Below are positions 13,001 to 61,338 of a DNA stretch of 64,000 bases, piece after piece. The notes below the pieces were generated by a model. The model did no database searches and had not been told where the DNA came from. It saw only the letters and a list, made by a program, of their open reading frames with translations. The stretch is from contig NC_044029.1 in assembly GCF_900496995.4 (NCBI RefSeq), positions 3,968,001-4,032,000 on the forward strand. Direction: 5' to 3'. The DNA comes from Aquila chrysaetos chrysaetos. Its lineage: Eukaryota; Chordata; Aves; Accipitriformes; Accipitridae. A program made the position numbers and the translations under genes. Each line of letters opens with the position of its first letter. Position 1 is the first letter of the stretch.

Positions 13001-16000
13001 AATAATTCAGATTATTGAATTTCTTAGTATTCTTAATTTTGTGTGTGAAGAGATGTAAAGGTATATTTGAGTCTAATAATAACAAAATAACTTGTCAAAA
13101 TAGTCACTGAAAAACAAATAATCATTTTAGAAAACTTTTTTCTTACCAAAGATTGATTGTCTTCCCTCAGCTGCTCGCCTTCCATTCTTCATTTTTAAGA
13201 TAACTTCCTGACAGTTAAGTTCACATGCACTTGTGTACATGCACATACACGCATGCATGCACAGAATTGTTGAGGTTGGAAAGGACCTCTGGAAATCAGC
13301 TTGACCAACTCTGCTCAAAATGGGATCAAGTCGAACAGGTTGCTCAGGGCTGCGTGCAGTCGGATTTTAAATAGCACCGAGGATGGAGACACCACAACCT
13401 CTGCGGGCAGCCTGGGTCAGTGCTAGACCATCCTCCCAGTAAAAACAGTTTCTTCTTCTGTCTAAATGGAACCTCCTGTGCTGCAGTTTGTGCCTGTTTC
13501 CTCTTGTCCTGTCGCTGGGCTCCACGGAGAAGAGCCTGGCTCCGTCTTTTTTACTTCCTCCCGTCAGGTATTTACGCACGTGGACAGGATCCCCCTGAGC
13601 TTCCCTTCTCCAGGCTGAATGAACACTCCCAGCTCGCTCAGCCTCTTCTCACGTGTCAGATGCTCCAAGCCCTTTCATCGTCTTCCTGGCCCTTTGCTGG
13701 ACTCGCTCCAGTAAGTCCGTATCTTGTACTGGGAAATAAACGCGGCGCTGGACCCAGCCCTCCAGCTGTGTCTCCGGGGCTGAGGAGAGGGGAAGGATCA
13801 CCTCCGTCGACCTGCTGGCGATGCTCTGCCTCCTGCAGCCCCGGAGGCCGTTGGCCTGCTTTGCTGCAGGGGTGCATCGCGGGCTCGTGGTCGGCTCGTC
13901 CCCCGGGTCCTTCTCTGGGGAGCTGCTTCCCAGCCTGTACTGGTGCCTGGGGTTACTCCTGCCCAGGCGCGGGACTCGGCGTTTCCCTTCGTGGAGCTGC
14001 GTGAGGTTCCTGCTGGCCCATTTCCCCAGCCTGTCCCGCTCCCTCTGGGCGGCAGCGAGACCCTCTGGTGTATCAGCCACTCTGCCTAGGTTTGAGTCAT
14101 CTGTAAACTTGCTGAGAGTTTAAAAGAATTGGCTCCAGTATTGACCCCTGGTGTACACCACTAGCGGCTGGGCTCCAGCAGCATTTCATGCTGCTGAACA
14201 CAACTCATTGAACCTGGTATCTCATTCAGTTTTCAGTTCATCTTATTGTCCATTTATGTAGTCTGTACTTCATTTTTTTCTGTGAGGATGTTATGGGATA
14301 CAGAGCTGAAGGCCTCACTGAAGTCAAGATAAACAACATCCACTGTTTTCCACTCATCCACTGGTTATCTGTACCAGTCATCTCATTGTAGGAAGAAGGC
14401 TATCAGGTTGGTCAAGCATGATTTTTCCAATCATAAATCCATGGTGGCTGCTCACAATCATCATTTTATTCTTAATACCTTTGGAAATGGTTTCCAGGTT
14501 TTGCTCCATCAGCCCTCCCACAGATGAAGGTGATGCTGACTGGCTTGTAGTTCCCCAGATCCTCCTCCTTGGAGACAGGAATGTCACTTGTTTTCTTCCT
14601 GTCCTCCCCTGATTGCCAGGACCTTTCAAAGATGAAGAACAGCCTTGCGACATCATCAGCCAGCTCCCTCTATTCTTACAGTTTAATCAGGGATAGCTTC
14701 TAATTCAAGGCAAGTGGAAGGAGAAGGGCAATCAGTATTTTCTGCAGCTAAAAAAGACCCAGTAAGGGAGGGGAAAAAATAAGGTTTGTGCTGATTTATG
14801 TGAAAGCTGCTTGGGTACCTAATTCAAGGAAGAAAATTAACGTTGCATGTTGCAAAGCAATAAGTAGTTGTTGATGATTTCTTTATAGAGTACTGTTGAG
14901 TAAATTCAAATTTAATGTAAGTTATCAAACAAAATACCTAGGCAATGTAATTTTAACAAGTTTTTGGAGTGGTGAGGAACCCTTTAGAAACTATTTGGGG
15001 TGGGTTTTGAAAGTCTCTTGTGAGGATTCCACTGCTTTTGAATCTGGTGTCTGAGGTAAAGCTCTTTGCGTAGATTTCTGTTACAGCAACACCAAACATA
15101 GCAGTGAAAGTGAAGAGCACTGGCTATGCTGATTTAGTAACGAGTTTCCTCTACAGCAAAGTTGTGATTAGTTACCGTTTCTTCTTAGGACAAACCTGTC
15201 TTGGGCTGTGGGTTTTTTTCCCAATAATTCACCATTTATTATAGCAATGCCTAGTAAAACTAGCTTTTGTTATCTCTTGGCATACTTAAAAAAACCCAAA
15301 CAGTTTGATTACTTCCTGATCATGTTTAAGATGGAATCTGAGCAAAATGCCTCTCCCTGGCCCCACTCAGCACAGCAGAATAACAGTGTGCAGTGCTCAG
15401 AGTATGAGTATGTCAAGACCCAGAGAGTGAAGTAGGTTCTAACCAATGTACTGTGTAAACTGTTTAAAGTTTTAAAAGGCAGTGCCTCTCCTTGCAAGTC
15501 TTGCTCCATTTACTTGCTCAACTGGTGTATTTCAGGACAGATTGGCTGATAGAAGGGGAAGTGTGCAATCTTTGGGTTGTTTGAAGCCCTTCAGCTTTAG
15601 GTAGTATGCTGTGAGTTAAAGTTTGGGGGAGAATGCTGATGGTGACTCGTGCAGTGCTGGGTATTAAGTCTCCCACTGAATAGACTATTAAAAACCATGA
15701 GAACTTCAGGTAGGTAACAGGAGGATTTGCGCTTAAACCAATCCAGGACCTGTATGCTGATTTCTATACTCTGGTATTAGTCTCTCTGCTCTTATGTGTA
15801 GCCTGAATCACAAAATGGTTGCCAAGTTGCTTTCCAACTAGATGAAGGTGATGATATTTAATCTATAAGAGGCCATCGAATCACAGACCACGGTTTGCTG
15901 TGGTTATGCTTATGTTATTTTGTTAAATGGATACAGATCATTTTGATGATGCTGTATGCTCATCACGATGAAGTTTAGGGTTTTTTATAACTGAGGAAAT

Positions 16001-19000: not shown

Positions 19001-22000
19001 TTCACCACTGCATAGGTTCAGCTGCTGATAGAAGTTATTCATTCACATGGATCGTGGAAGGGTGGAGGTCCTTTGGAGGAAGACTCAAATGACGTGACAC
19101 AAAGCAGCTTGAGCTGGCTTTTAGAAGACTGCATTGCAAATCAACATAACGTGTTGCCATTCCAGCGTAGAAGAGCTACTGCTTTTAACTTAACTTTCCT
19201 AAATATTGAATGTTATTGTAAATTAATTGTCCCCTGCTGTATTATCTGCATTTTCCAGGTTGACTCACTTCACTTCTTGACATTTTATTTATGTTGTCTT
19301 ACTGCTTGTCCTTTCCCTAGTGTGACGATGGATCCACTTACTGAAAGAAGAAATAAATTCTTTTTACCTGTTAATTTTTCTTTGAAGAAGTGTGCTTCCT
19401 AATCCAGGCTTCCCTGGAAGACTTACAAAGTAAGAAGGATATGACTTTAAAATCCCCAGCTGTTGGGGTTGTTAGTTTTTTGGTTTTGTTTTTTTTCTTT
19501 TTAAATTAACCTAAACGATAGTTTTTCTCTTTTATGTACATTTTCCTTTTGGAGTGATTCTTTTTGGAGAAAAGACTCCTGAGATTCCATCAGCTGCTTT
19601 CTCTTGGACAGTCCCAGACAGACCATTTTGACACTGCTTTTCTTTCTCAGTAAAACATAAGAACACTTGCCTATTTGTGATAACAGTATTGGACATGCTG
19701 CTTCAGAGAAAATAAATTAGGTGTATAATTTCTTTTGTTAAATGACTATGTCTTGTCTTTGGTTGCATCAGTTATCTCTAGGAAAAAAACGTTTTGTTTT
19801 GGGTTTTTGAGACCTATGTTATGGTATACTTTTACTAAAGTAAGTTTTTGAGTGTAAGCAACTGGTGAAATATTGTTTTACAGGTTACATGTCTTGCCTG
19901 TGACAATAAATCAAATACTGTAGAACCTTTCTGGGACCTGTCCCTGGAGTTTCCTGAGAGGTATCACTGCAATGGCAAGGAGATGTCGTCTCAGTATCCA
20001 TGTCTGCTGACAGAAATGCTGGCCAAGTTTACAGAAACTGAAGCTTTGGAAGGAAAGATATATGCGTGTGATCAGTGCAACAGTGAGTAAAGGCAGTATG
20101 TACTCATGCATACATTCTCTGTGTAAAATATTAAGTAAACTGACAGTGAAAGTGTAGAAGGAAAATACTAAAAGCCTTAAAAGTGTGTTGCAAACAAAGT
20201 CCTCCTCCTTATGTCCTGGTGTGGTCACTTAACAGTCATTACTCATCACCTAGAAGATGGAATTGTTCACAGAATGTTTTGAAGTGTGATGCTTCTCTTA
20301 GATAAAGTCTGATCACACACTAATGGGTATTCTGATACTTCCAGCTGAAGAACCCATCAGCTTTTTTAATTAAGGTGACTAACCTAAGTGACCACAAGTA
20401 TTTTATACTTACATCATACAATCCTTGCAAAATAGCTCTGAGAGTGTATCCTTTTTGAGGAGGCACATACAGTAGCTATTTAGGTCCACGCAAACTTGGT
20501 GGATAAATCTTAGACTGAAATACAAGGCTGTTATCGAGATTTGTATTGTGTAACTGTGTGTTTGGCCTCAGCAAAACGAAGGAAGTTTTCTTCTAAACCA
20601 GTTATACTCACAGAAGCTCAGAAGCAGCTTATGGTGTGTCGACTACCTCAGGTTCTCAGATTACACCTTAAACGGTTTAGGTAAGTAGTGCCACAACAAC
20701 CAGCGTTGCAAACTGACCAATTCAGTCGTGCTCTTCCATTGTTTGGGATCAATGCTTTTCAGCATCAGTTTAATTTCTGTTTACTAGTATGATGATAAAT
20801 AGTTATTAGAAATTTCTTTTTCTTGTTTCATTTAAACATCAGTAAGATACACTATAAGTAGAGAATTGACCTTTTGGATTCCAACTACTTGCTACCTTAA
20901 TACCAAAATGATTTCATCCTTCTTTTCAGTCAAAACCTACTAACCTTGCTGTGAACTCTGTCGGTAAAAATTAATCTTGTGTTATCGTCAGGTAGAGTAA
21001 ATGCTCATATTCACTAATGTACAAACCGAGATTGTATTCATTGGAAGTCTCCCGTAACCTTCATATAACCAAATACATTAATGCATTAGCCGGAGAGGAA
21101 GGAAGTGGAGACTGCATCTCTGTGAACTCTTAGTCCACGCATTAGTACAGAGTCTGTCCTCAATACAAAGGAAACCGAAAATCAGATAAAGGAGAAATAC
21201 CAATTGAGATATAATATGTGGAAAATACTTCCCACTCACCATTACACAGATCTTGAGATGGATTATTTCAGAAGATGAGAATAGTAGGTACTGTAGACAC
21301 ATTCTAAAAGGCCTTGAGATAAAGCAGAAGTGAAAGAGGAAGCCTAGAAAAAAAAATATTAGCATTTATTTTGTGCACAAAGACAATAGTGAAGATAACA
21401 TATGTTATATTAGAACATAATTCAGAATGCTGTGTTCTTTCTTTGAAAAAATGTAAGTTTACTTTTGACTTAACTTTCCAGGTGGTCAGGACGCAATCAT
21501 CGTGAGAAGATTGGCGTACATGTTAATTTTGATCAAATGCTGAACATGGAGCCTTATTGCTGCAGAGAATCCCTCAAGTCCCTCCTACCCGACTGCTTTA
21601 TCTATGACTTGTCTGCTGTGGTAATGCATCATGGGAAAGGATTTGGCTCAGGGCACTACACTGCCTACTGCTACAATTCAGAAGGAGGTAGGAATCGGCT
21701 GTGAAATAAGGAGTGTGGGAGAAAGGGATGTTTGTAATTCTAAACTGTTAAGCTTACTGTCTTTTCTCAAAAGCAAATGGGAATCACCTGTAGCTGAACT
21801 GCCCGGAATGAGAATTGCAGTTCTGTAGGCCAAAACAGTTCAATTTTTGTATTGGCTTGTTAAACGTGTTCTGGCTATAAACTCTCCTGTAAATCTGAGG
21901 AAGCTAAGCTGGGCTTTTAAAACATAGAGGCAAATATACTAGATCAACTGAAACAGTATACTATTTCTACACAACTCGTTAAATGGGACTGAACACTAAA

Positions 22001-25294: not shown

Positions 25295-26170
25295 GCGCAA
25301 AAAATTGTAGCTGGTGGAAGGGGCCTCTGGAGACTGTAGAGTCAACTCTGCTCAAAACGGGGTCAAGTCGAACAGGTTGCTCAGGGCTGCGTGCAGTCGG
25401 GTTTTAAATAGCACCGAGGATGGAGACACCACAACCTCTGCGGGCAGCCTGGGTCAGTGCTAGACCATCCTCCCAGTAAAAACAGTTTCTTCTTCTGTCT
25501 AAATGGAACCTCCTGTGCTGCAGTTTGTGCCTGTTTCCTCTTGTCCTGTCGCTGGGCTCCACGGAGAAGAGCCTGGCTCCGTCTTTTTTACTTCCTCCCG
25601 TCAGGTATTTACGCACGTGGACAGGATCCCCCTGAGCTTCCCTTCTCCAGGCTGAATGAACACTCCCAGCTCGCTCAGCCTCTCCTCACGTGTCGGATGC
25701 TCCAAGCCCTTTCATCGTCTTCCTGGCCCTTTGCTGGACTCGCTCCAGTAAGTCCGTATCTTGTACTGGGAAATAAACGCGGCGCTGGACCCAGCCCTCC
25801 GGCTGTGTCTCCGCGTGGCTGAGGAGAGGGGAAGGATCACCTCCGTCGACCTGCTGGCGATGCTCTGCCTCCTGCAGCCCCGGAGGCCGTTGGCCTGCTT
25901 TGCTGCAGGGGTGCATCGCGGGCTCGTGGTCGGCTCGTCCCCCGGGTCCTTCTCTGGGGAGCTGCTTCCCAGCCTGTACTGGTGCCTGGGGTTACTCACT
26001 CGGCGTTTCCCTTCGTGGAGCTGCGTGAGGTTCCTGCTGGCCCATTTCCCCAGCCTGTCCCGCTCCCTCTGGGCGGCAGTGCCCCCGCCTGGTCCACCAG
26101 CCACTCCTCCCTGCTTCGGTTCATCTGCGAAGCTGCTGAGAATGCGCTGGCGCTGCGACACATCCTGCAG
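25295..26170 (-). mobile_element. CR1 LINE fragment, antisense, about 0.9 kb (copy 2)
   Basis: It is in the same orientation as the fragment at 13262-14697 and begins with a diverged 3'-end block near 25295. From 25363 to 26079 it matches copy 1 at roughly 99 percent: I count four substitutions, a 2-base insertion with a change near 25814, and a 15-base deletion near 25996. The homologous flanks on both sides differ by roughly a quarter to a third. It stops at about 26170. Confidence 0.88.
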
Positions 26171-31173: not shown

Positions 31174-47562
<16,389 letters not shown>

Positions 47563-48306
47563 GTCGCCGCGGCCGCGCCGCCTCCCACACACGGGGCGAG
47601 CGAGAGGGAGGGAGCGAGCGGCGGGGCCGGCCCTCCGCTCTATGGTGAGCGCGGGGCACGCCGGGAAGGCTGGAGGACTCCGCCAGGGAGGGGCGGAGGA
47701 CGGAGGGAGGGCTTAGGGAGCTGGCAGGTTTTCTGCTGGTGTAACCATGCTGGCTAAAAATACTACTTTTTTTTCTTCCTCGCCGGTATATTTTAACACC
47801 TCTTGCCTGAGGTGTATTTATAGTATATAGTATAACGCAGTTTGTAGCTTAGAAAGGTTATAAATGGGTCTCACCTTGCATAACTTGGGTTTTTAAGTGC
47901 CTTTGCAGCCCGGTCTTTGCTTAGGAAAACCGGTAATGCCTTGTTACCTCGCTGAGGCACAAGTTGGGCCCCCCTGGCCCTGCTGGGGCTGGCCGCTGCC
48001 TTCGTTATTCCCCGCCATGGCTCAGCCCCAGGGGCCCTGTCCCGGCCTGCTACGATCCTCGGCTTCGAACAACTAAAGCAGACGTCCAGCGCTGACCAAA
48101 CAAACGCCATCCCGGCCTGCGCCGCGGTGTGTTCTCCGGTGGTTTTGTCTGTAAGAGCAGTGGAACGTGGAAACGTCCAGCTGGGCCTTTCGTGGCCGGC
48201 AAGCTGGCTTCCCTGGGCTTGAGGCACGTTCAGGGCAGCGAGACGTGCCCCACCAGTTGGGAACTGCTGTGGTAGCACTGGTTCCCCATCTAAACCACGT
48301 CATTCT

Positions 48307-48396
48307 ATGTCCGTATCAATTAATATAACCGGACCACCTCCAGGAGGGTCCTATTACGGTGGCTTCAAGCAGAATAAACCTTGCACAATAGAGCAG
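48307..48396 (+). CDS. Tentative first coding exon of the FAM194-like gene
   Basis: An ATG at 48307 opens 30 codons (MSVSINITGPPPGG... ending CTIEQ) and runs straight into a strong donor GAGCAG|GTGAGC, phase 0. It lies 745 bases from the METAP2 start on the opposite side of the CpG island. The next firm exon needs phase 2, so one or two exons between 48.4 and 50.4 kb are missing from the model. A chance open frame remains possible. Confidence 0.35.
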
Positions 48397-48958
48397 GTGA
48401 GCCATTTAATGCTCTGCTGCTATTTTCCTGCTGTTTTGTTGCCAGTCAGAATTGACTTTGTCTGATGAAGAGAGCCGTGGAGGAACGGCTCTTTCTCATA
48501 CTGAGAATGGATGGCACACAAGCATGTGCACTGATGTTGCCTAAAACACTTTTTTTTGTGTATTGCTTTCCATTCTAGTTTTCTAATCAGGTAGAAGAGG
48601 AATCTACAGAGCTGGGGGTTTTTTTTGTGGTTGACGGCAGGGGGACGAGGAACACCAGGGGTCATGTTCACTAAGTTCTCCATTTTGAGTCATCTTAGAT
48701 CTTCCTGTTGTACATTTATTGTAGCTGGGCACTGTAATGGTCTCAAGAGACCCAATAAGAGTGTTTCTACTTTTGTGTTTGATTTTAATCCATTAGTCTC
48801 TCATGTACCAGACTGTTCTTACCCCTCACTATATCCCCTTTGGTGCCTTTGACAGCCTGAAAAAGAGAGTTGTGCTCCTAGCTTGTGCTCCTGATCCATT
48901 CACTCTAGTAAGTGCCAAAACAGACAAGTTGCCAGACCATGGATTTTGTTGACTCTAG

Positions 48959-48995
48959 AACTGAAGTCACAGATAAAGGAGGCCATGAAGTCTAG
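48959..48995 (+). CDS. Tentative small exon of the FAM194-like gene
   Basis: The acceptor TTGTTGACTCTAG and donor TCTAG|GTAAGC bound 37 bases. Only the phase-1 frame is open, giving LKSQIKEAMKS and leaving phase 2, exactly what the exon at 50401 needs. Support is limited to splice sites and phase because the exon is so short. Confidence 0.42.
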
Positions 48996-50400
48996 GTAAG
49001 CCCAGGGAATACAGAAGGCGAGATATTGACCAGAGATAGATAAAGGAAAAATAAGGTAGGTAAGAATACATCTCGTGCAGTGGCTGCAGACAAGAGATCC
49101 AGGAGTAAGGGCATCAGAGGAAAAGGGACAACAAGTAGAACAAATATTTCTGTGATCAGCTGAATTAATGAAGCCAGTTTTCTCAGAGGGTTCTTTCTTT
49201 CCTCCCCAGAATGACTCCAGCACCATTCGTAATCACTGAGGTACACCAATGAAGAGAGAGGTGGCTTGTGCTTTAGTACTACGTGTGCAGTTGGCCAGCT
49301 GACTGGTGCCAGACAGTTCAGCAGAGTTTGGCCTGCCTTTTTTTTTGGTGGGGACGCTTCCCTGGGCCTCTATTTTCTACCCAGCTGCTGATTTTCATGA
49401 AGTGTGTCCAGGCATCATTATCTTTGGGTGTGTTGTTCTGCAAAATCTGCCTGAAATCAGACATTTGCATAAACCTCCTTTCCTTAAAAAACTAGGCTGA
49501 AAATAAATTGTAGCGGGGAGTCACACTTTACTTAACAAAGAATATGAATAAAACCTAGCAGAGTGAAAGAAAATAGGCAGTGAGCTGGAAGAGTCAGTAT
49601 TAACAATGTGTCTCTACAGTTTGAAGTGATGCTACACTCTAAGTGCTGTTACTGGACCCAGGAGCACTCCATAAGCTGTGTTCATTAGGCTTGCAGAGAA
49701 GAGAGCATGATGGAAGGAGCAAAGTTAAGCACCTTCCAGATTGCATTGCTTCCAGCCCCAGAATTAGCGGTATACTCTATACAAGAGAATACAGATAGCC
49801 AACAGGATAATAGCATGATAACCGATGTGCAAAAACAGGAATGCTGAATGAAAAAATTGCAAAGTGGGAGTAAGAAGCTGGACTGACTGCTTTAACAAAG
49901 CAAATATTAACATGAACAGACTGACAACTGGACTCCATGTTCCCCACATGGCTGCTTTTAAGAGGGTCTGGTCTCTTAGAAGCAGAGACAATGATCCACG
50001 TCTTGTAGCATGTCCTTACCAGCGCAGATTTTTTTTGGCTGCCTTCTGTTATTGCCTCTCAGCGGTTCCTAGCAGGTAATACACATTATATTAATAAATG
50101 CTACATTTTCCAATTTCATGCTATACTAGGCAGGATGATCAGAAGACAGTATCGGACAGGCCATAGGCCAGAAGAGACATGCGAATACCATTTTTAGGTG
50201 GAGAAAGATAGTGGGTTTTTTTGTTTTCTCACAGTGGCTATTCCTTTTTCTTACCCAGCCTCCCGGACAAAGGCAGGCAGTGGCTGGGGAGTTAAGGGAA
50301 GGGCCAAATGCAGTCCAAAACATGTGGTAACTAAGCAGCAGGACTTGAAACCCTTTCCTGAAAGACAACACAGAGACTCACCTCTTCTTTTTCTTTCAAG

Positions 50401-50470
50401 GAGGCAGCTCCCATTGCACTATTTTCCTAGCAAAAGAAGTTATGATCTTCAGGAAAAGACTTCTTTCAGG
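50401..50470 (+). CDS. FAM194-like gene, exon with SKRSYDLQEKTSFR
   Basis: A strong polypyrimidine acceptor (CTTCTTTTTCTTTCAAG) and donor CAGG|GTATGT bound 70 bases. The phase-2 frame is open and basic and ends in phase 0, matching the following exon. The phase-1 frame is also open but would hit a stop in the next exon. Confidence 0.6.
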
Positions 50471-53400
50471 GTATGTTGTGTTTTCTTTTGTGTTTTCTTT
50501 TCAAGCTGTCTGTGTCAAGAAATGGCGTGGAATGGAGTGGGGGAGCTGTCTCTGACAGCTGCGCTTTAATCCTGGAAAGAGGGGGAGGAAGGACGACTAG
50601 GGAGTAAGTGGCCTGTATCAGTCCCAAGAAGAGTTGAACAGAGGGATGTTATATTTGTTTCTGTTTGTATTTCTGGGACTGATGCCATTATTTATGTGTT
50701 TATGACACTTTAATACTCTTTTTCCTAGCTTAGGGCCAAAACTCATAGTCCTTACTCAGCTCTAAAAATCCACTGAAATCAATGGGACAATTTTTGTGAC
50801 TAGAGGTTTAATATTGGGCCTAAAGTCTGGATGTAGACAAAGAAAATGTTTCTTGCATGAGAGCAAATATGTCTTATGAACTGTAGAAGGAAAGATATTC
50901 CCCCTCACCAATTGCTGAGGACAGAGGACACTTGTACTTTCTCAGCCATCATCACCCATAGCATTTACTATGGGAATGACAGCTGTCACCAAATAGTGTC
51001 TTCCTTAGCATAGGCAAGATGAAGGGCTTCCTTAATTCTGAAATCACTCCTTCTCTAAGATTTTACCTAAAACCTAGAGGCAGTAGCTAAAGCAAAGTTA
51101 AAAGTGACAAAAGCAGACAAAGAATTCACATTTAAAACTTCTTTCCACATTCCTTGGCGATTTCTTTTTCTTTTTACCAAACACGAGTTTGATTACAGCC
51201 TGTCAGCCGTAATCCAAACATCCTGGCTTGCATCAGCTAGTGTCACAACATCAACATCCTTTGGAGGACAGATTTTCAAAGGGTGCAAGGAGTGCTTCTA
51301 AAAAGAAACAAATTTAATCTGTCTTACTGCTGAAAGTCACCTTGAGAAGCACAGACCGCTGTTTGTGCACTCAGACTGGGACAAAGAGAATGCTTTTCAG
51401 TTTGCATGAATAGATGCATGCTGTGAAATATAAAAAATAGGTTAAGTTTATTGCCTTGTCTGGAGCTCATTTTTGAAATTGCTTTTAAGCGACAAGATTC
51501 ACATGAACAAAACAATCCATTGTCTGGACCAGTGCTTCAGAAAGACTCCTTATATTTCTGTGATAAGGAGCTATTGCATTAGGCATGTATGCGGATACGT
51601 GCATTAGGATGTGCTACAGTGAGCGTCTCCCTGACAGCAGATCTCTGTGCCTGTGTGCAGTCTTGGTAGGGGATGGAAGGCTGCACAGAGTCAAGGGGCT
51701 CCACACTGGTATCTTTCAAACAAATTTTTCTATGTTTATGATAGAGTCATAAAACCCCTTTTTTAATAAAAGCATATTTATTGATGTACTCACTGAGTCA
51801 TAACTGCAGATGCAAGCCGTCTTCTTTTTCAGATAACAAACTGAGATATTGCCTATCCTCAGAAATAATTGTAGGTTGTATCTCATGAAAACACTAGTTT
51901 AGAGTAGTATGAACCTAAATTATAAAAAACTGATATTTTGATCTTCAGTTTTGTAATCAGCTTCATATAATTTAATCCACTGACGCATGAATGTATTCCC
52001 ATTCATACAGTGGTGGTTCCTGTATTATTTGAAGTGAACTTTCAAGGCCTCACACAGAAAGTAATACCTCAGCTTCACTGTTAGTGTAAAAAAACGTAAA
52101 CAGTTTCTTTCTCACAGCCTGCTGACATAAGTGTTTTCCTCTGGGGTGCTCCACCCCTTCTTCATTCTAGGGAGTAATGGAACCAACGTTTACAGCTGCA
52201 GCGCTGGAGGCAGGACCTGTGTATTTCTTTGACCAGGTATTTTCTTTTCTATCCAGGATATTCTTCTGCTTCCCTCTTCTCCCTCACACCTCCTCCAGTC
52301 TTAAATTGGAAACATTCATTTCGTTGTAGATGAAAACTAGAATGAAAGAGAGGGGCAAGAAGATACCAGAAGAACTGTCCTCATATCTCACTACAGACCT
52401 TTGCCTTGGCTTTACTCCCAGGTAACAGTGTGACACCAGTGGTGGTGGGAGCAGGGAAGTTTCTGTCAACTAGTTTTTCAGGGAAGACACAAAAAGGAGT
52501 CCCAAGGTAGATGTGGCCAAGGCAGAACGAGAGAGATGGGGGAGGCACATGACCAGAACTGGCACCCTGCCACACAGCGTGAGCCAGAGGAGACAAGGGA
52601 GAAGGTGCCAGTGTCCTATACGTAACCCTAACTCCCTGAGGTGTAGTACCTAATGTTCATTTCTGCTGTCAGCATTTCATGAGTTTAATATATTTAACAT
52701 ACAAACCTTGAGCAGTTAGTTAAAGAATGCCACATAATAGCCTTGTTCTACTGTTTTGGCATGGACCGAACAACAGCACATTGCTAGGTGCAGAGCGCTC
52801 TGGATTTCATGAAGTTCATGTCTGCTGACTAATGTACCGGGAGCCAGTGTTCACAGCATTCCTCTGGGCTGTGACTCCTCTGGATAACTGGGTTTTAAAC
52901 TTAGGTTTCATTACATTTGCTTTAAACTGATATTTTTCTTCCAAGAACAAACCTTGTTTTGCCTAACTTGCTTTTGGATTTCAGAAATTTATTCCAGGTT
53001 GTTTCAGTCTATGAACACGTTTGTGTGCATTCAACTTAAAGAGTGTAAGAAGTTACCATTGAAACTGGGGAGGATTACCACGTGGTTACAGCTAAGCTTG
53101 TGTGTGTTTAGAAGCCTGAGGACTAAGACTTTTTTGGTAAACTTTCTTTGAGTTTTAGATTTCAAAACTCCTAAAACTTGTTAATAAATTTTCCACATTG
53201 GCAGTCCTCTAACTAAACTGTTATAGTTTAAAATAAAGCTGGTCCTCTCACAACCATGGAAGATCTGAGTTTCCAAACTGGAGGAAAAAAAAAAAGCCCA
53301 ACACAGAATAGGGTATATAGAATCAGCAGCTACTGAAGAAAACTTCTTTAGACACTCAAAGTTTTATTACACCTAAAAGTCCTTTGCATGTCACGTCTAC

Positions 53401-56400
53401 AAAAGCAAAATTTGGGTTTATTTGATTACCATTGTACTGAGGCAAGAGAAAATAATTTTACATAGGAGAGAAAAAATCAATCAGCATGTTACATTACATT
53501 ACATTACACTCCGGCAGGCATAGTCCAAAGCCTACACTGTCAGTGCAGAGACTCCCTGGTTTGGCAATGGCTGCACTAAATCTCCTCGTGCTGCTCTGCA
53601 CGGGTATTTCTGAGCTTGATCTAGGAGTGTCTTCCCTGGGAGGAAATGTGGCTCAGTCTCAACTGTGAAAGGGAGCACTGCCAGCCTGTCCACATACGTT
53701 TCAGGCAGCAAAGATAACAGGTCTTTTTTCTGTGTTCTTTAACTGTTACTGCACTCACTTAATGGTACAGCTTTTTTTTCTCCTCAGCCCAGCTGAAGGC
53801 AGGAGTGCCATCTGTACAGGTGAGCATACAGAAAGACATGAAGATGGTTTCTTAAATGATGATACAACAAGAAAAGAAAAATATCCAGTATTGCAACAAG
53901 TGTCTTGTCGTTCCCTGTGTAAAACCACTATGGAGGACTCAGACCCAAAAATCTCCCAAACGTCTTTGATCCCACAGGCAGATGAGGACTCACCACTGAA
54001 CATGTTGAATGAGTCTGTGGCTGCCAACATGTTACAGGAACTTGGAGAGAAGTTGCAGCTCCTTGCTAGGTATGAGACTGGTTTCCCTCAGGGACTTGTG
54101 AATCTGCTAACCTGTAGCTGGAGAGAAATCACTGAGGGGGTTGATTACCATAAATGGCACCAGGAGTCACTACCGTACAAAAGTGTGAGATCCAGGAGAA
54201 GCCAAGCCTCAGAGGAAGTTAAGAGTGGTGCTCTGGGGTCCAAATGTACGGAGTGTGAAATCACTGCCATCAGAAAAGAACCACACAAGAAAAGCTTTGC
54301 TCTACCAGCCTGTACTACAAAGGGAAAAAGAAAGCCTGAGACAGCATCAAACATGCCTCTAGGAAGTAAAGGTAACGTCGTGCTGTGTAAATGTGCTGTG
54401 TTGTAATGTTTAGCTGCAAAAGGGAAAAAAGCACTTTCTGTTAAGACTATACTCTGTTGGCTGGGTAGGCCAACATGCCCCACTTTATAGCTTGTTATAC
54501 TGCAGTTCTCTGCAAAATATTGTTTTAGGACATGATGAAATAGCTTTGCAGCTGAAGCAAGAGGTACAAACACTTAAAAGAACAAAGCCGGTGAAACTGG
54601 GCAATGTTTCAAACCATTTATCAAAGCATTTTTAGTCTCCTCTTTCAAGGTGAGTGATAGAGTCATAACATATTGCGCCAGTAAAAATCATTTGCATCCA
54701 GAGCATTTCATTCAGGAAGTGTCAGTAATCCTCAGTGCAGAACCAGAGGTTGGGGTCAAGCCTGTTCCAGCTCTCCAGGTGCTACTGCAGTCTTCCTCTT
54801 TAAAAAAAAAAAGAATAATCTTTGGGTTTATGTTTTTGAAAGCTGACTCACCCTTGCCTGTATGATCATAAGCATTGCACTCTGCTTTCTTCCTGTCTAG
54901 CTCCTGTTGTGCAAAATGATGTTGGCCAATCACCCGTCACAATCAGCTTCTCGCTCTCATCCAGCATTTGTGAGGAAAGAGGTAAGAGTAGTAGGCAGCT
55001 CAGCTGGATGGCTGGTGCTTAGCAGAGGTGGCTAGAATTATGTAGTACCTGGACAGCTGTTCTTGATGCCTGGATTTACTAAAGTATGGATTAGCATGAG
55101 GAGGGAGTAATTGTCAAGCAATAGCCCTCTCACCCCCCTGCTTTTTGGATATAATCTATTTTTAAATACCCAGTCCTTCTCTGATTATCTCTGATCATCT
55201 GCCAATGAGGTTTTCTACATAGCCACTGCTCTTTGCTAGCAGAATACAGGGGGAATAACTGCTTTGGGATTTTAAGCCTTTCTCTACTGGAAACTGTCTG
55301 ACCACATATATTTGACTTAATAACTTTTGCTCTGAATGGGAGCACTAATGCACTAACTGAAAAGTTCTTCACAAGGCATTATGCCAGTTCTGCCTAAAAC
55401 GTGGACAAATTTGATGATCTGAAGGGAAGAACTGCTTACTCTGCACCTCTTTTTGGATTTCTTTAAGAACTTTGCCATGTGGGGGAAAAAAAAAAAGCGA
55501 GCATTTGTGCATTTTCTTCCTCATCCTGGCCATGAAGTTGGTCAGGTGCCACCAGGACTGCAGAACTGAAATTCCTTGGCTGGTGAAGGTTAAAAGTGCT
55601 GCAGAGACACCCAGCATTTTAGCGTGGAGGAACAGCTCCGTAAACAAATACATAGGCACTGAAGGGAATTATACCCTCTTTTGTTGTTTCCTGAAAAGGT
55701 GGCATCCAGTTTCTTCTAGTTGTAACAAAGAAACAGCACTTCTGAAATGCTTTGCTGTGGAGTTGCGTGCTCTTGGTGTCTCTGAGCTATTAAGTTTGCA
55801 AGAGTATTGATTCCACCTTTAGCTCTCGTGCTCACAGGCAGCCTCTTTATTCTTCTGTCTCAGTGGTCACAGATGAACGTCTAAAGGGTCCTGACAACCA
55901 GCTTCCACTAAACTGTCCCTACCCGTTCCTATCTCTTGGGAGCTCCCATTTGCTTGGTCTGTCATCACAGGTTTATTTTTTATTTGGTGAAGGGAATGCC
56001 CAGCAGCAGGTCATGCATTTCTGTGACCACAATTCTGACCCACCGAGTTCTTGTTTCTGACTGAATTGCTTTCCAATTTGTTCATAGTGAAACAGTAAAT
56101 CCAGGGAAACTGAGCTTCTCTGCATTAATTTTAACAATTGCTTGGCCCATTCTGTAGCAGTCTGTGTCTGTAGCCATTTTTTATTAACTTATTGGGACTT
56201 TCGCATCAAGTAATCTAATTTCTTGATAATAACCATTGCTACAGAAGATGTTCAGGCTGAATAGAGATTGCATCCTGACCATTCATCTTGGTCGTTCTCA
56301 CCTTTTTAGAAAATCAAGTGAGAATAACTGAGAATCTCCAGAAGTTAAGGAACTTCTTCCTCCACACTCCCACAGGCCTTCTGAAATTACCCACAAATGC

Positions 56401-59400
56401 TGCAAATGTAAACTAGTAAAATATACCTGCCCTAGTGCAGCTGCAACCACAGATGTCTTACAGAAATACACACTAAAAGAACTTTGTGCCCCTGCTGCTC
56501 AAAGTGATGCATAGCTTAATTTTCCAACTACCTCTCCAGATGGTTGCTGAGAATAATTAGAGTCTGCATTACCTGCATCCTTTTTCAGCAGCAATCCTGC
56601 ACTGTACACAAATCAGTGACTGTGAGTGATGTGGGAAGTTAAGGTAGTTCATATGAGGGTCTCACCTGGAATTTATCTGAATAATCAATTTTTCTGGATG
56701 CCCACCTTCTTCCTAGACATAATTTTCTGTTTTTCAATTGAAGGCGCATACAAGGCACATTCCCTCTTTCTCCCATTGTATTCTTCAAGGCAAAGGATCT
56801 GTTTAATCTGTTTAAGAAGGCAATTCTCAAAGCTTCGGCAATTTGCGTTCATATGAATGAACCTTACTTTCTATTGACAGATGCCATAGAACAGGACTGA
56901 CATTAATTAACATTAGTCTTTACTTATGCATCCAATTCTATTCTCTCATTCTGTTTCTCTAGGTTGGATTTTCCAACTTCCTGACTCAAATTCTGAAGAT
57001 ATTCACCAGAACCTGCCTTATGTGTGCACACTGGAGAGACTAGAACAAATTCAAAAACAAATGTAACAAACTGAGGTTTTTTACTTCCATAAGCAAAATT
57101 AGAATAAATGTCAGTGTTTTCATGATGTAGAATATGGATTGTGGCAGACCACTTAACCAAACCAACACACTAGTCTGGAGAGCATTATTGCTTTGAAAAC
57201 TTATAAAGTTCTGCTTAACATTTCACTATTCATGAAAGAGAAACATATACTTTTATTTTAGCTACTGTAATGGTAGATAAGAATTATCTCAACAGAGACA
57301 TTTTCAGGGATTAGTGGTGAGACAATATTTTCTGATTATTATTAATCTGCAGATAAACTTCCCAATAGTTGTGAAAAACTGTTTGAATATCTTTTGCAAA
57401 AGAAACCATGGTCCATGAAAACCATGTTGCATTTTGGTAATTTGCTGCGATCTGTAGCCTGTTGCCTTGCCAGGGCCTGAAAGAAGATTGTCATAAGATA
57501 CTGTGGCCAGATTCAGGCCTTTAGACTTCTTCATGCTGCTTATACTTCTTCATGCTGCTTATACTTAAGCATTCCATTCTTACATGGCACCCTGGATGCT
57601 CCCCACAGAGAACTGTACACGTGTTTAAAATGTATGGTAGCTTCCCAATACATCAGCCATTTTTTGAGTACCAACTATAGTGCTAAAATAGTATCAAGAG
57701 ATGGAGGAGGTGTCAGAAGTAGTTAAGATTTACCCTGCCTGATCAATTCTCTGAGGAAGAAGTACTGGAATTTATAAAGCAGGCTAGGTTTAAATGAAAA
57801 AAATCTTTGCTGATAACTAATTATAAGAATTAATTACTTACAAGGACAGTTATTAAAGTTAACCTGTATACTTTTGTATCTACAGGACAATTTCTGAATT
57901 TCAGCTGTTACATATCCTGCTATTTAACTGACAGTTCCTGTACACTGGCAAAATTATAAACTTATTCAGATTTAATAAAATCAGCATTGTATCTTAGGTG
58001 AAAAATCATAATTCATAATAATAGGTTTAGCAGCTAGTAGCTCTATAAAATCAAGCAGTTTTCAGTGTGTAAGAGAGTATATGCTACGATGTACAATATA
58101 GTACACTAGCATATTATTCCTCGTGGAATGGGTTATTATCACTGCTTTATTCCTTGGGGAACTGAGTAGCCCAAAGTCCAAAAGATTGAGGCTGCAGCAA
58201 AAACTGGAGTTTGCATTGTTTGACCAGCCTCTGTATGTCACTCTCCAATAGCTATATAATGTGTTTGCAAAGCCAAGAAAAAGAAAAGCAACAAAAAAAG
58301 TTTAATATTTGAAGCTTATACTGGAAAGATCGTATTTTCTGATTATTTAAATGAGTGCTGTTGTCTTCCCACCCATGAGACATATCATGTCTTAGAATTA
58401 CCTGTTTTAGAGAACACTCTGAAATGTATCTGTCACTTATCCTCCTGGATTCAGGGTTTTGATACACCCCAGCCTGCAATTGTTAAGAACTGGATGGAAC
58501 TTATCCAAACACTGAGGATACCTGTGGTTGTCTGTGGTGCAGTTATTCTGGGGTTTACCATATTACTGTTCCCAAAAGCTCTGCAGTCAGCTGATTTAAT
58601 CATCTAATTGAAGACAACATTTATGCCACAAATAGGGTCATAGGATCTGCCTGCAAGCAAAGTGTTCCCTTTCACAGGACCTGAGCACGTCTGCAGGATT
58701 TGCAGACCCTGTTGGCTCATCAGGTTGGAAGTAAAATGCTGCTCCTCATATTGCAATACCCTGATGCTGTCACCAGATTCCTGTGTCAGTTCCGTCAGAG
58801 TTGGCTTAGTGTTCTTGAATATTTATGCTTAGCCTGGTCAGCAAAAAGTTTATACTGAACAATATTTTATGGCAAAATTGAAACAGCAAGAAATACTGGC
58901 TTGAAGACAAAAATATTCCTTTGATTTCTATCAGCTGATGTTTTACATAATTAGCTATTCTCAAAATTGACCAGCTTTTGTGCTCATTTTTGCCTTTAAT
59001 GGTTTCATTTACCTAATACTACTGTGATGACCTGCACATTTTTATAACTGCTTAAAGACAAACAGATGAAAGTATGGATGCATGTGCTCATATATACATG
59101 TAGAACAGTACACATAGAATGTCTAATTGAAAAGGATGTCAGCCAAAGGCTGGCAGGACTAAATAGCTGTCTCCTAGGTTTGGGTTAATTTAGACAGCCT
59201 CAAACTCTTTCTGCTTCTTTCTCAAGATCAGTCATGGGACTGAATTAGATATAAATTTGGCTGTTAGATAAAGAAATTTTAAATATTTAAGTATTGTTCT
59301 TTCTCAGAAGGATGAAGTAAGCAATAGCAATGAAGAGTAGCACAATAGGCATATGGAATACAGGATGGTGAAGGTGAAGAAATAAAATCAGGTAGACAAA

Positions 59401-61338
59401 CTTTCAACAGGGGTAAAGTTGATTGCTCCTCCAAGTCAAAGGATCTCTGCTATGTACATGTGTAGAGGGCTGGTGCAGTCGGTTCTAGTGCCAGCTTAAC
59501 CACGGGTGGCTTACGTGATCTTGGGCAACTTACTTAAACCCTTTCTATCTGAGAGTAATGTGTTTAATAATATCCGTCATCAGTGTTTACAAAGCTGCTC
59601 AGGATTCTCAAGTGAAAAACAATTTAGAAGAGAGCAAAATCATATCATTAGCTGTAGAGAGGTTGTAATGAAAGGTTATTGATGAAACAAAACAGAAATC
59701 TGCCACTTCAGGCTGATATTGCTTGGCGAAGGAATTGGGAAATCAGCAGGTTCTTCTGCATTAAGTAGGAAGGGGGAGATTAGAGAAGAACAAATATTTG
59801 GGCACATCTTACTCAGCTGAAAATATAAACGTAGTGACTTGCTAAGATAATTGTAAGTGTAAAATAGCTGAGACTTTAAACCAGAAATTTTCACTGTCAC
59901 TCACACTGGCCATGCTGATCAGTAAGAAGTCTGAACCTCCACTCTCTACTGCAACTCATGGGCTGAGTCCATTGACAAAGCACTGAAATGTCTGTGACAG
60001 CTTCAACAGGCAATGGGGCTGTTTGCTGATGTTTGTGAGGCTGCCTGAATTCCTAGCTAAATTAGTAATCTTGATCATTTCTTTCTCAGCTGACTTGCAA
60101 ATCAAGGTATGTTTTCTGCTTAGGTCATACTTCGTTCTAAATTAATGGAAGTCTTGCCTGAGGATTTTGCTTAGCAAGAACTAATCAGAGGTGTAATTTT
60201 TTTCCTCCCTCATGTAAACAGAGAAGAGCAAACATCCAAGCTGAAAAAAGTAGGATTTGACAAACCAATTATTCTCCGGCATTATGGTGATCACAAAGAA
60301 GAAACTTTCTCCAAGACATGGAAAGTTCAGACTGGCATGACTGTCACACCAGAGCTGACACATGGCAAACCTCAGATCCCAGTGCTCAAGAAAGCAGGCA
60401 CAGCACAGAGAAAACTGCACTACGGGCTGAATGATGGCTCATCTTTCATTTAATATCCTTTCTGTTTACACAGCACATGTGAATTCCAGCAAGAGTGTGG
60501 GGGGTAATGGGAAAATTTCTACAGGGGGAAGACTCAGACTTAATGTGTAGCTGAACAGCTTCCAAGACTCGGCTGCATGAAAAGGAACAAGACATCATTC
60601 GTTTGTTTGTTTCTTATCACACTGTATTTGTATGGTACCAGAGCTATAGCCAGGTAGTCAGATTGTAACAACAAAGCCCAGTATGTGTCAGGTGGGTGGA
60701 CATGCCTCAGAAAGAAATATTCCAGAATGAAAAATGCAGTTACAAGTTAACGGCATTAAACTGCAATCCATTTAGAGTATAACCTTGTCTTGAACAAAGA
60801 TCACTTTGTCAGTCACAGTCATCAAACTGGATTAGGAACAGTCTGCTCTGTCACAGAGAAAACCACCAAAGATATTGTGCTTCATAAACATGTTTCTGAT
60901 TCATATGTTGCTCCTGCAAAGGTCACTTTTGGCCTGTACCAGCCATGTTAGCTTAGTCAGGTGGGTGGATTCTGTACTGAGAACCCATCCTCCATCTCTC
61001 CCAACCCTCTGGTTCAAGGAAGGACACAACTGGCTTAGTAGCCTCACTTACCCATATGCACCTGGACCCAATACCCAGGATACAGAGCTGAGAGAAAGCT
61101 TTAGTCCCTGTGTTCTCTGCAGGGGCATGTAAGAGAAGCCATAAAACTGGAGAATGATACCAAGTTTACTCCTTGACTTTCATTTTAGCTATCCTTCTGA
61201 GTATCTTGCTGTTTGCCAAAGCTGCTGCAATCTCCCATGTGGAGGTTTCTATACCAACATATTTAGCCCTTCTCCAGATCACTCTATAGTTGGAACTTTC
61301 ACCCCTTTTGGACATGGCAGCATCTGTCTTCCTACCAG
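50401..61338 (+). CDS. FAM194-domain gene (C3orf20-like), multi-exon, 5' and 3' ends unresolved
   Basis: I assembled this gene from splice signals and phase. Block 1 exons are 50401-50470, 52171-52236, 52330-52421, 53788-54371, 54901-54981 and 55864-55986. Block 2 exons are 58455-58536, 58678-58730, 60090-60106, 60222-60452 and 61189-61338. In block 1 phases run 2-0-0-2-1-1-1; in block 2 they run 0-1-0-2-2-2. About 517 codons are visible. The C-terminal exons read DGSSFIYYPSEYLAVCQS, then GGFYTNIF and TPFGHGSIC, which I recognise as the FAM194 domain shared by C3orf20, ERICH6 and ERICH6B. No biochemical role is established for this family. Block 1 is charged and Ser-rich with a helical NMLQELGEKLQLLARYE segment. 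The link between blocks and the ends are uncertain, and the domain call is from pattern memory, not a search. Confidence 0.72.
52171..52236 (+). CDS. FAM194-like gene, 66-bp exon
   Basis: The acceptor CCCCTTCTTCATTCTAG and donor CCAG|GTATTT are both good. Phase 0 to 0 gives a 22-residue segment ending GPVYFFDQ; the two other frames contain stops. The following intron is short, at 93 bases. Confidence 0.62.
52330..52421 (+). CDS. FAM194-like gene, 92-bp basic exon
   Basis: The acceptor TTCGTTGTAG and donor CCCAG|GTAACA bound an exon open in phase 0 that exits in phase 2. It begins MKTRMKERGKKIPEELSS, a lysine-rich stretch. Phase 2 is what the large exon at 53788 requires. Confidence 0.62.
53489..53509. 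repeat. (ATTAC)n microsatellite
   Basis: About four units of TTACA in a row, perfect. Confidence 0.8.
53788..54371 (+). CDS. FAM194-like gene, large 584-bp exon
   Basis: The frame is open across the whole exon, from the acceptor CTTTTTTTTCTCCTCAG to the donor AAAG|GTAACG (phase 2 in, phase 1 out). The product is charged and Ser/Lys-rich, with a likely helix NMLQELGEKLQLLARYE and then LLTCSWREITEGVDYHKW. The latter looks like the structured core of this part. A strong internal donor-like CAG|GTGAGC at 53819 could produce a shorter isoform. An antisense open frame (54145-54573) overlaps but has no splice support. Confidence 0.75.
54901..54981 (+). CDS. FAM194-like gene, 81-bp exon
   Basis: The acceptor CTTTCTTCCTGTCTAG and donor GAG|GTAAGA are excellent. 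The frame demanded by the preceding exon (phase 1) is open: APVVQNDVGQSPVTISF followed by SLSSSICEER. The exon is symmetric (phase 1 to 1), so it can be skipped without a frameshift. Confidence 0.72.
55864..55986 (+). CDS. FAM194-like gene, 123-bp exon (donor uncertain)
   Basis: The acceptor TTATTCTTCTGTCTCAG is strong. The phase-1 frame is open through CPYPFLSLGSSHLLGLSSQ. Two donors are possible: TTTG|GTGAAG after 55986 (phase 1) or CACAG|GTTTAT after 55970 (phase 0). The second would join directly to the phase-0 exon at 58455. Without splicing, the frame stops at 56060. Confidence 0.62.
56963..57066 (+). CDS. Possible alternative terminal exon of the FAM194-like gene
   Basis: After the acceptor CATTCTGTTTCTCTAG the phase-1 frame reads WIFQLPDSNSEDIHQNLPY, continues acidic and helical, and stops at TAA 57064-57066. 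A canonical AATAAA follows at 57103-57108. This would give a short isoform without the FAM194 domain. A chance open frame of 33 codons is not excluded. Confidence 0.38.
57353..57436 (+). CDS. Possible 84-bp exon of the FAM194-like gene
   Basis: The acceptor TTATTAATCTGCAG opens a phase-1 frame KLPNSCEKLFEYLLQKKPW and continues to a moderate donor TTTG|GTAATT, phase 1 out. It looks protein-like, but the next firm exon needs phase 0, so it does not fit the simple chain. Confidence 0.28.
57526..57563. repeat. 19-bp tandem duplication
   Basis: ACTTCTTCATGCTGCTTAT is repeated twice without change at 57526 and 57545. Confidence 0.85.
58455..58536 (+). CDS. FAM194-like gene, exon with KNWMELIQTLRIPVVVC
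   Basis: The acceptor CTTATCCTCCTGGATTCAG leads into a phase-0 frame GFDTPQPAIVKNWMELIQ and on to RIPVVVCG. The donor TGTG|GTGCAG is weak; if it is used, phase 1 joins cleanly to the next exon to give VVVCGPEHVCRICRPCW. Without splicing, the frame would run on into a hydrophobic tail and stop at 58608 or so. That reading I consider an unspliced artefact. Confidence 0.5.
58678..58730 (+). CDS. FAM194-like gene, 53-bp cysteine-rich exon
   Basis: The acceptor GTGTTCCCTTTCACAG is strong and the donor GGAA|GTAAAA moderate. In phase 1 it reads PEHVCRICRPCWLIRLE and exits in phase 0, matching the 17-base exon downstream. Together with the preceding exon the cysteines are spaced as if to bind metal, but this is inference. 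Confidence 0.5.
60090..60106 (+). CDS. FAM194-like gene, 17-nt microexon
   Basis: A very strong acceptor (GATCATTTCTTTCTCAG) and donor (CAAG|GTATGT) enclose 17 bases, CTGACTTGCAAATCAAG. Phase 0 in and 2 out joins exactly to the exon at 60222, reading LTCKSREEQTSKLKK across the junction. The intron between them is 115 bases. Confidence 0.6.
60222..60452 (+). CDS. FAM194-like gene, exon entering the FAM194 domain
   Basis: In phase 2 the exon is open for 76 codons. It starts EEQTSKLKKVGFDKPII, passes ETFSKTWKVQTGMTV and ends KLHYGLNDGSSFI plus TA. A TAA directly at the boundary would end the frame, but the text there is TTTA|ATATCCTTT, a full U12-type 5' splice site. Joining TA to the C of the next exon restores FIYYPSEYLAV, the expected motif. 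Confidence 0.8.
60453..61188 (+). other. U12-type (minor spliceosome) intron, AT-AG
   Basis: The 5' site ATATCCTTT (60453-60461) fits the RTATCCTTT consensus completely. A branch site CTCCTTGAC (61169-61177) matches TTCCTTRAY at all but the first base, and its branch A lies 12 bases before the exon. The intron ends TTTTAG and is 736 bases long. Terminal dinucleotides are AT-AG, a rare U12 subtype. Confidence 0.85.
61189..61338 (+). CDS. FAM194-like gene, FAM194-domain exon
   Basis: In phase 2 the exon reads YPSEYLAVCQSCCNLPCGG, FYTNIF and GTFTPFGHGSICLPT and leaves through donor CCAG|GTAATT in phase 2. Cys/Gly-rich YPS...AVC, GGFYTNIF and TPFGHGS are the strongest family marks in the whole gene. 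The domain is not finished here, so at least one more exon must follow. I found none with the right phase before the window end. Confidence 0.8.

Follow-up and report, generated by a model that had tools for sequence, protein, structure and literature searches.

A probable third FAM194-family gene, with an apparent U12-type AT-AG intron, between METAP2 and VEZT in Aquila chrysaetos chrysaetos

The region between METAP2 and VEZT in the genome of Aquila chrysaetos chrysaetos very probably harbors a real protein-coding gene with many exons that appears to be intact. It belongs to the FAM194 family and joins ERICH6 and ERICH6B as the third member found in this genome. It was found in a stretch of 64,000 nucleotides, here called the window (contig C26, 3968001-4032000), and relatives were sought in the whole genome of 1.23 Gb in 144 contigs. 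The gene model is based on the sequence of this one bird genome, and from it we infer that the gene is transcribed and spliced as modelled. The gene would start head-to-head with METAP2, run towards VEZT and encode about 624 residues, laid out as a long N-terminal half without a known domain, the FAM194 domain and a short tail. A preliminary description had seen a split gene that ended at 61338. Instead of a split we find one frame of 624 codons with an apparent U12-type AT-AG intron at the break, and the gene continues to an end about 6.7 kb to the right of the window edge.

When splice sites and phases were compared, eight exons in the window could be joined into a single open frame of 464 codons. 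The next exon to the right of the window was located by tblastn with a paralogue exon and two further exons were read from the flank sequence. With these three, the model has 11 exons, 1875 bases and 624 codons, with a start and a stop codon and with phases that are all consistent. The exon candidates described earlier, on one strand and with good splice sites and agreeing phases, are indeed present at this place, including the 584-base and 231-base open exons (53788-54371 and 60222-60452) and the Cys/Gly-rich module (exon 61189-61338). The proposed number of at least eleven exons agrees with the eleven coding exons of the model, yet only eight of these lie within the window. The two chains of 6 and 5 exons could not be assigned to individual exons of the model; the break between them may correspond to the AT donor at 60452 or to an optional exon. 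The features of the model are:

48307..48396, plus strand: coding exon 1, 90 nucleotides with the ATG at 48307; open, donor CAG/GTGAGC, phase 0
52171..52236, plus strand: coding exon 2, 66 nucleotides; consensus acceptor and donor, phase 0/0
52330..52421, plus strand: coding exon 3, 92 nucleotides; consensus sites, phase 0/2
53788..54371, plus strand: coding exon 4, 584 nucleotides, fully open, phase 2/1; N-terminal half, no known domain
54529..54649, plus strand: optional exon candidate, 121 nucleotides; good acceptor and donor, in-frame stop
54901..54981, plus strand: coding exon 5 of the main model, 81 nucleotides; consensus sites, phase 1/1
56963..57062, plus strand: coding exon 6, 100 nucleotides; phase 1/2, donor AAT/GTAACA
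60222..60452, plus strand: coding exon 7, 231 nucleotides; phase 2/2, FAM194 match starts here at profile column 9
60453..61188, plus strand: proposed U12-type AT-AG intron, 736 nucleotides; 5' splice site ATATCCTTT at 60453-60461, branch-like TCCTTGAC at 61170-61177
61189..61338, plus strand: coding exon 8, 150 nucleotides, FAM194 domain core; donor CAG/GTAATT, phase 2
C26:4032157-4032277, 4034018-4034149 and 4038428-4038655: coding exons 9 to 11, outside the window; the last has the stop codon
47000..48399, no strand: CpG-rich region with the METAP2 start and coding exon 1 of the FAM194 gene

The FAM194 membership suggested in the preliminary description is borne out by the Pfam profile PF14977, which has a curated cut-off of 27 bits. 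The joined window exons reach 37.2 bits (E 2.4e-9) and the complete protein 93.7 bits (E 1.3e-26), over columns 9-166 of 202 and residues 397-552. This match extends in the correct order over four exons, namely 60222-60452, 61189-61338 and the next two outside the window. Exon 60222-60452 alone has no PF14977 match and the frame around exon 61189-61338 alone scores 18.5 bits; since both are weak singly and reach 37.2 bits when joined, the score depends on the proposed joining. In the whole-genome search with the same profile the exon at C26:4032155-4032259 obtained 18.9 bits (E 0.445), which is below the cut-off. An NCBIfam search of the model returned nothing at E up to 1, and the search of solved structures gave no match to the gene models and matches to the domain only at chance level. 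For the last exon Pfam offers two weak matches that we take as chance, 3-PAP with E 0.018 and 15.3 bits (cut-off 23.3) and TetR with E 0.099.

It is extremely improbable that the model is a chance assembly of unrelated open stretches with no gene behind it. Stops appear in every one of 1000 dinucleotide-shuffled versions of the joined exons (mean 32.6, fewest 15) and none of 2000 dinucleotide shuffles of the 584-base exon stays open, counts that are biased and overstate the case since the exons were picked by eye as open. The profile match of 93.7 bits is for that reason the safer measure. A chance assembly would be in line with this selection for openness and with the lack of a homologue for exons 1-6 and the last exon, but it does not account for a family match that is in order over four exons, nor for an intron position shared with ERICH6B. 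For the four FAM194-matching exons it is already refuted; it could still apply to exons 1-3, which appear to be the least certain part of the model.

The exon candidate 54529-54649 was excluded from the main transcript, as it puts a stop in frame despite its good splice sites. It is presumably optional or unused, and a transcript that included it would code for a protein truncated ahead of the FAM194 domain. It could act as a poison exon that reduces the amount of full-length protein.

The frame meets a TAA directly after exon 60222-60452. With 61189 as the one acceptor considered, none of the ten GT donors in 60300-60560 leaves the frame open; the AT donor at 60452/60453 does. The 3' junction of exon 7 then reads TTTCATTTA/ATATCCTTTC and the 5' junction of exon 8 reads CTCCTTGACTTTCATTTTAG/CTATCC. 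The U12 consensus, as given in PMC2831892, is ATATCCTT for the 5' splice site and TCCTTAAC for the branch site. In intron 60453-61188, ATATCCTTT fits the U12 5' splice site, the branch-like TCCTTGAC is one base off TCCTTAAC, and the terminal AG ends at 61188. In the window ATATCCTTT occurs twice (expected 0.91) and TCCTTRAC followed after 8-14 bases by AG four times (expected 2.48). These counts are near expectation, so that the motifs alone prove little and it is their exact placement that carries weight. The intron looks like a U12-type intron of the AT-AG kind, a rare end type: in our own reading of the columns of a table row in PMC7367187, chicken U12 introns are 77% GT-AG, 18% AT-AC and 3.4% other. 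As a consequence of this apparent AT-AG intron, simple scans see the gene as two halves.

The two relatives in the same genome have an intron at the corresponding place. ERICH6B resembles the window gene in its FAM194 domain and in an intron with U12 signals (donor GTATCC, branch site TTCCTTAAC) at the identical position and in phase 2, but the ends of that intron are GT-AG, unlike the AT-AG of the window gene, and its locus is on the CBY2 side. ERICH6 likewise has the domain, and its intron at the homologous position is also of phase 2; the donor there, GTATATCCTTT, is different and less typical. A phase-2 intron just before YPS is common to the three genes. Since ERICH6B and ERICH6 have it at the same place and in the same phase, the intron inside the FAM194 domain is probably older than the family split. 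In the proposed scheme the minor spliceosome would have to remove it, and the activity of this machinery may limit the amount of full protein.

The whole-genome PF14977 search, with 10 candidates scored, yielded ten matches with E of 10 or less: five in a gene on contig C10, three in a gene on C14, one in an exon of the window gene and one on C21. The C21 match contains an internal stop and was taken as chance. The two other genes are:

C10:541174-543813, minus strand: ERICH6 (FAM194A), beside SIAH2
C14:30683564-30686223, minus strand: ERICH6B (FAM194B), about 46 kb from a CBY2-like gene

These names follow from the neighbours. The gene adjacent to the C10 gene is SIAH2 (412 bits to PDB 5h9m, versus 370 for SIAH1), and the CBY2-like gene near the C14 gene has a Chibby match of 28.2 bits (cut-off 24.8); in human, ERICH6 lies by SIAH2 and ERICH6B by CBY2. 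The window gene is at neither of these loci, each of which carries its own FAM194 gene. By its locus it is therefore a third FAM194 gene and not an orthologue of ERICH6 or ERICH6B. In a three-way alignment of the paralogues 20 of 161 columns are invariant, and a core of DG, YPS, LA, W.W, N and V.I is common to all. The exons C26:4032157-4032277 and 4034018-4034149 of the window gene correspond to one exon in both ERICH6 and ERICH6B; the extra intron, at the boundary PVIAQ/VNEYITV, was either gained in the window gene or lost in both relatives.

In 40 kb by ERICH6 (C10:530001-570000) there was no convincing counterpart of the N-terminal half of the window gene. The two best matches are weak: one, located beyond the domain on its far side, has E 0.005 and the other has E 0.32. 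A query of 601 residues (the model shortened by 23 residues at its C-terminal end) had no convincing match in the genome beyond its own exons. It gave 13 matches at E up to 1, of which 11 are its own exons and the others have E 0.118 and E 0.861. ERICH6 and ERICH6B were also missed by this query, which indicates that distant relatives escape such a search. The match with E 0.118 (C26:6315529-6315753) was ruled out as a relative, as no FAM194 motif occurs in the 8 kb read there. In ERICH6 itself, around C10:542287-542465 (minus strand), there is a short GTAAA-like insert with stops, across which the frame of the profile match changes; the same region is a single FAM194 exon in ERICH6B. The insert points either to a damaged ERICH6 in this bird, to an individual variant or to an assembly error.

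METAP2 and VEZT, which had been named as the flanking genes, do flank the gene. METAP2, identified by a match to PDB 1r58 (E 6e-55), and VEZT, to the right of the window and identified by Pfam Vezatin (88.9 and 98.6 bits in two of the three open frames tried), are both on the minus strand. METAP2, with its ATG at 47560-47562, and the FAM194 gene are head-to-head with 744 bases from ATG to ATG. The CpG-rich region 47000-48399, at whose edge coding exon 1 is situated, has a GC fraction of 0.56-0.77 and an observed/expected CpG ratio of 0.66-1.08 in six overlapping windows of 400 bases. At the other end of the FAM194 gene an ATTAAA begins 192 bases past the stop codon, at 70847 in continued window numbering. 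A repeat tail at 67761 in the same numbering is of the avian CR1 kind. Within the window, 13392-13815 and 25429-25811 are alike by tblastn and are apparently copies of one interspersed repeat.

To the left of METAP2, the open frame 21474-21704 on the plus strand resembles a USP44 exon. Further to the right, beyond VEZT, the plus strand of C26 carries RhoGEF exons (4165114-4166612), a FYVE exon (4185590) and a zf-C4 exon (4237678). By domain, the RhoGEF and FYVE exons would belong to FGD6 and the zf-C4 exon to NR2C1. The chicken order is NR2C1-FGD6-VEZT-METAP2 (PMC6339939 Table 2), and the USP44-like frame agrees with the chicken order METAP2-USP44 (PMC6339939).

The window gene is thus not beside FGD5: its neighbours are METAP2 and VEZT and then, by domain, FGD6 and NR2C1. 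NR2C1/NR2C2 and FGD6/FGD5 look like pairs from the early vertebrate genome duplications. Human C3orf20 (FAM194C) is located at 3p25 beside FGD5, in the FGD5-NR2C2 block, and so the window gene occupies the matching place in the other block. It resembles C3orf20 in belonging to the FAM194 family and in the mirrored neighbours (FGD5/NR2C2 versus FGD6/NR2C1), and differs from it in chromosome block, in a comparison made by locus. On account of the mirrored neighbours and the adjacency of C3orf20 and FGD5, the likeliest origin of the window gene is that of a partner to C3orf20 from the whole-genome duplications, retained in this bird while mammals lost it or moved it elsewhere; we place the chances of this just short of even. 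Rather unlikely is the alternative of a direct bird orthologue of C3orf20, a gene that moved to the METAP2-VEZT interval or, in mammals, away from it. In its favour, the window gene is the only third FAM194 locus seen in this genome and weak searches for C3orf20 elsewhere found none, but the gene is in the FGD6-NR2C1 block and human C3orf20 in the FGD5-NR2C2 block, and a partner left in place needs no move. The fuller reading combines the duplication origin with the intron. The gene would be a so far overlooked fourth vertebrate FAM194 gene and the ancient partner of C3orf20. Birds would have retained it in the METAP2-VEZT interval and would lack C3orf20, mammals would have lost it, and its product would depend on one minor-spliceosome intron that predates the family split. 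In its entirety we hold this to be possible, with the balance tilted against it.

Observations on the second block and on C3orf20 bear on this reading in both directions. On C20 a zf-C4 exon (25080860, minus strand) is found between FYVE exons at 25041313 (plus strand) and 25123375 (minus strand), and it is nearly equal to the zf-C4 exon of C26: 93.3 bits over 12-69 for 25080860, 93.6 bits over 12-70 for 4237678. The block fits RBSN-NR2C2-FGD5, with names suggested by domain type, order and strand. The FYVE match at C20:25.04 Mb is assigned to RBSN and not to FGD5, given that an NR2C2-like exon separates the two FYVE matches. A RhoGEF search found none on C20 near 25.1 Mb, which either argues against FGD5 being there or reflects a limit of the search. 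C3orf20 was not found in this genome by searches that are weak, and the expected site beside FGD5 was not read. The profile search recovered one exon of the window gene and an ERICH6B query none, so that a divergent C3orf20 could escape both; the seven matches of the ERICH6B query were to ERICH6B, to one ERICH6 exon and to three places taken as chance. A degenerate DNA pattern for the YPSGN exon start matched 30 places genome-wide, including ERICH6 and ERICH6B and none on C20, compared with 1 place for a reversed control pattern; the window gene has YPSE there and is out of reach of the pattern, as C3orf20 might also be.

The gene model itself has weak points. The FAM194 domain is divergent, with 24% identity to ERICH6 and 21% to ERICH6B, and scores 95.6 bits where ERICH6 reaches 211.6 (its broken stretch omitted) and ERICH6B 182.5. 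The last 36 profile columns (167-202) are unmatched, and no part of the last exon matches FAM194. For that exon and for exons 1-6 the support comes from frame and splice sites. A simple scan of 47400-52300 showed no FOXJ1 or CREM site and no RFX X-box near the start, with one X-box-like match at 51878. The divergence, the unmatched C-terminal columns and the in-frame stop of exon candidate 54529-54649 would also be expected of a decaying copy, a unitary pseudogene in the making whose frame is still open although selection is gone. We regard this as improbable: 624 codons in 11 exons are free of stops and frameshifts, the splice sites are usable, a rare intron has been retained with near-consensus signals, and neutral decay should break such a frame in time.

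It is as likely as not that the gene is already annotated in current bird genomes, for example as a 'glutamate-rich protein 6-like' or LOC entry, in which case the novelty lies mainly in the reading of the splice site. Automatic annotation with testis RNA sequencing normally catches an 11-exon gene of this kind, and FAM194 is a catalogued family. The evidence on the other side comes from a chicken gene table. CCDC38, which the human order leads one to expect in it, is missing from that table. For chicken chromosome 1, 43.05-46.79 Mb, the table, which dates from 2019 and seems incomplete, has 45 genes, with none between VEZT (ending at 45489126) and METAP2 (starting at 45535393) (PMC6339939 Tables 1 and 2). 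Judged by titles and the beginnings of abstracts, the papers listed in the searches made under FAM194-family names offer almost no functional work and no gene between METAP2 and VEZT. Among those listed, one has a FAM194 family member in its title (PMC9028963), and several on FAM19A4 concern, by title, a different gene.

Since ERICH6 is listed as testis-specific in human, with ERICH6B as ubiquitous (PMC7436996), and since C3orf20 is named in PMC7054227 among reproductive-tract-specific genes with male-infertile mutant mice, our best guess is a role in male germ cells, perhaps in spermatogenesis. The basis is thin and the guess could go either way. In such cells the FAM194 domain of the product might serve as a beta-rich binding module that belongs to some structure of the sperm, the centriole or the axoneme. 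As to the fold, the two paralogues match MORN_2 repeats (E 6.8e-5 and 1.3e-4; 23.1 and 22.3 bits), significantly by E-value though below the curated cut-off of 29.6, and the window gene itself has no MORN_2 match. When the three-way FAM194 profile was searched against PDB, Sas-4/CPAP made up 4 of the 15 chains listed, one of them first, at E 0.22-0.95. This likeness to the Sas-4/CPAP G-box (TCP10_C) is non-significant, and unrelated proteins score alike. As a lead only, the matches point to a fold in the form of an open beta meander with a role in partner binding.

Finally, the gene appears to add a new member to a testis-associated family that is known but poorly understood, and existing annotation may already contain it under some generic name. 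One more apparently intact member with a definite locus in a bird offers a point of comparison for the FAM194 domain, and its apparent AT-AG intron is an example of how simple scans can make a gene seem broken. If the gene is indeed the lost partner of C3orf20, vertebrate lineages would keep different copies of a fertility gene, and such reciprocal loss, if true, would mean that two genes swap roles between lineages.

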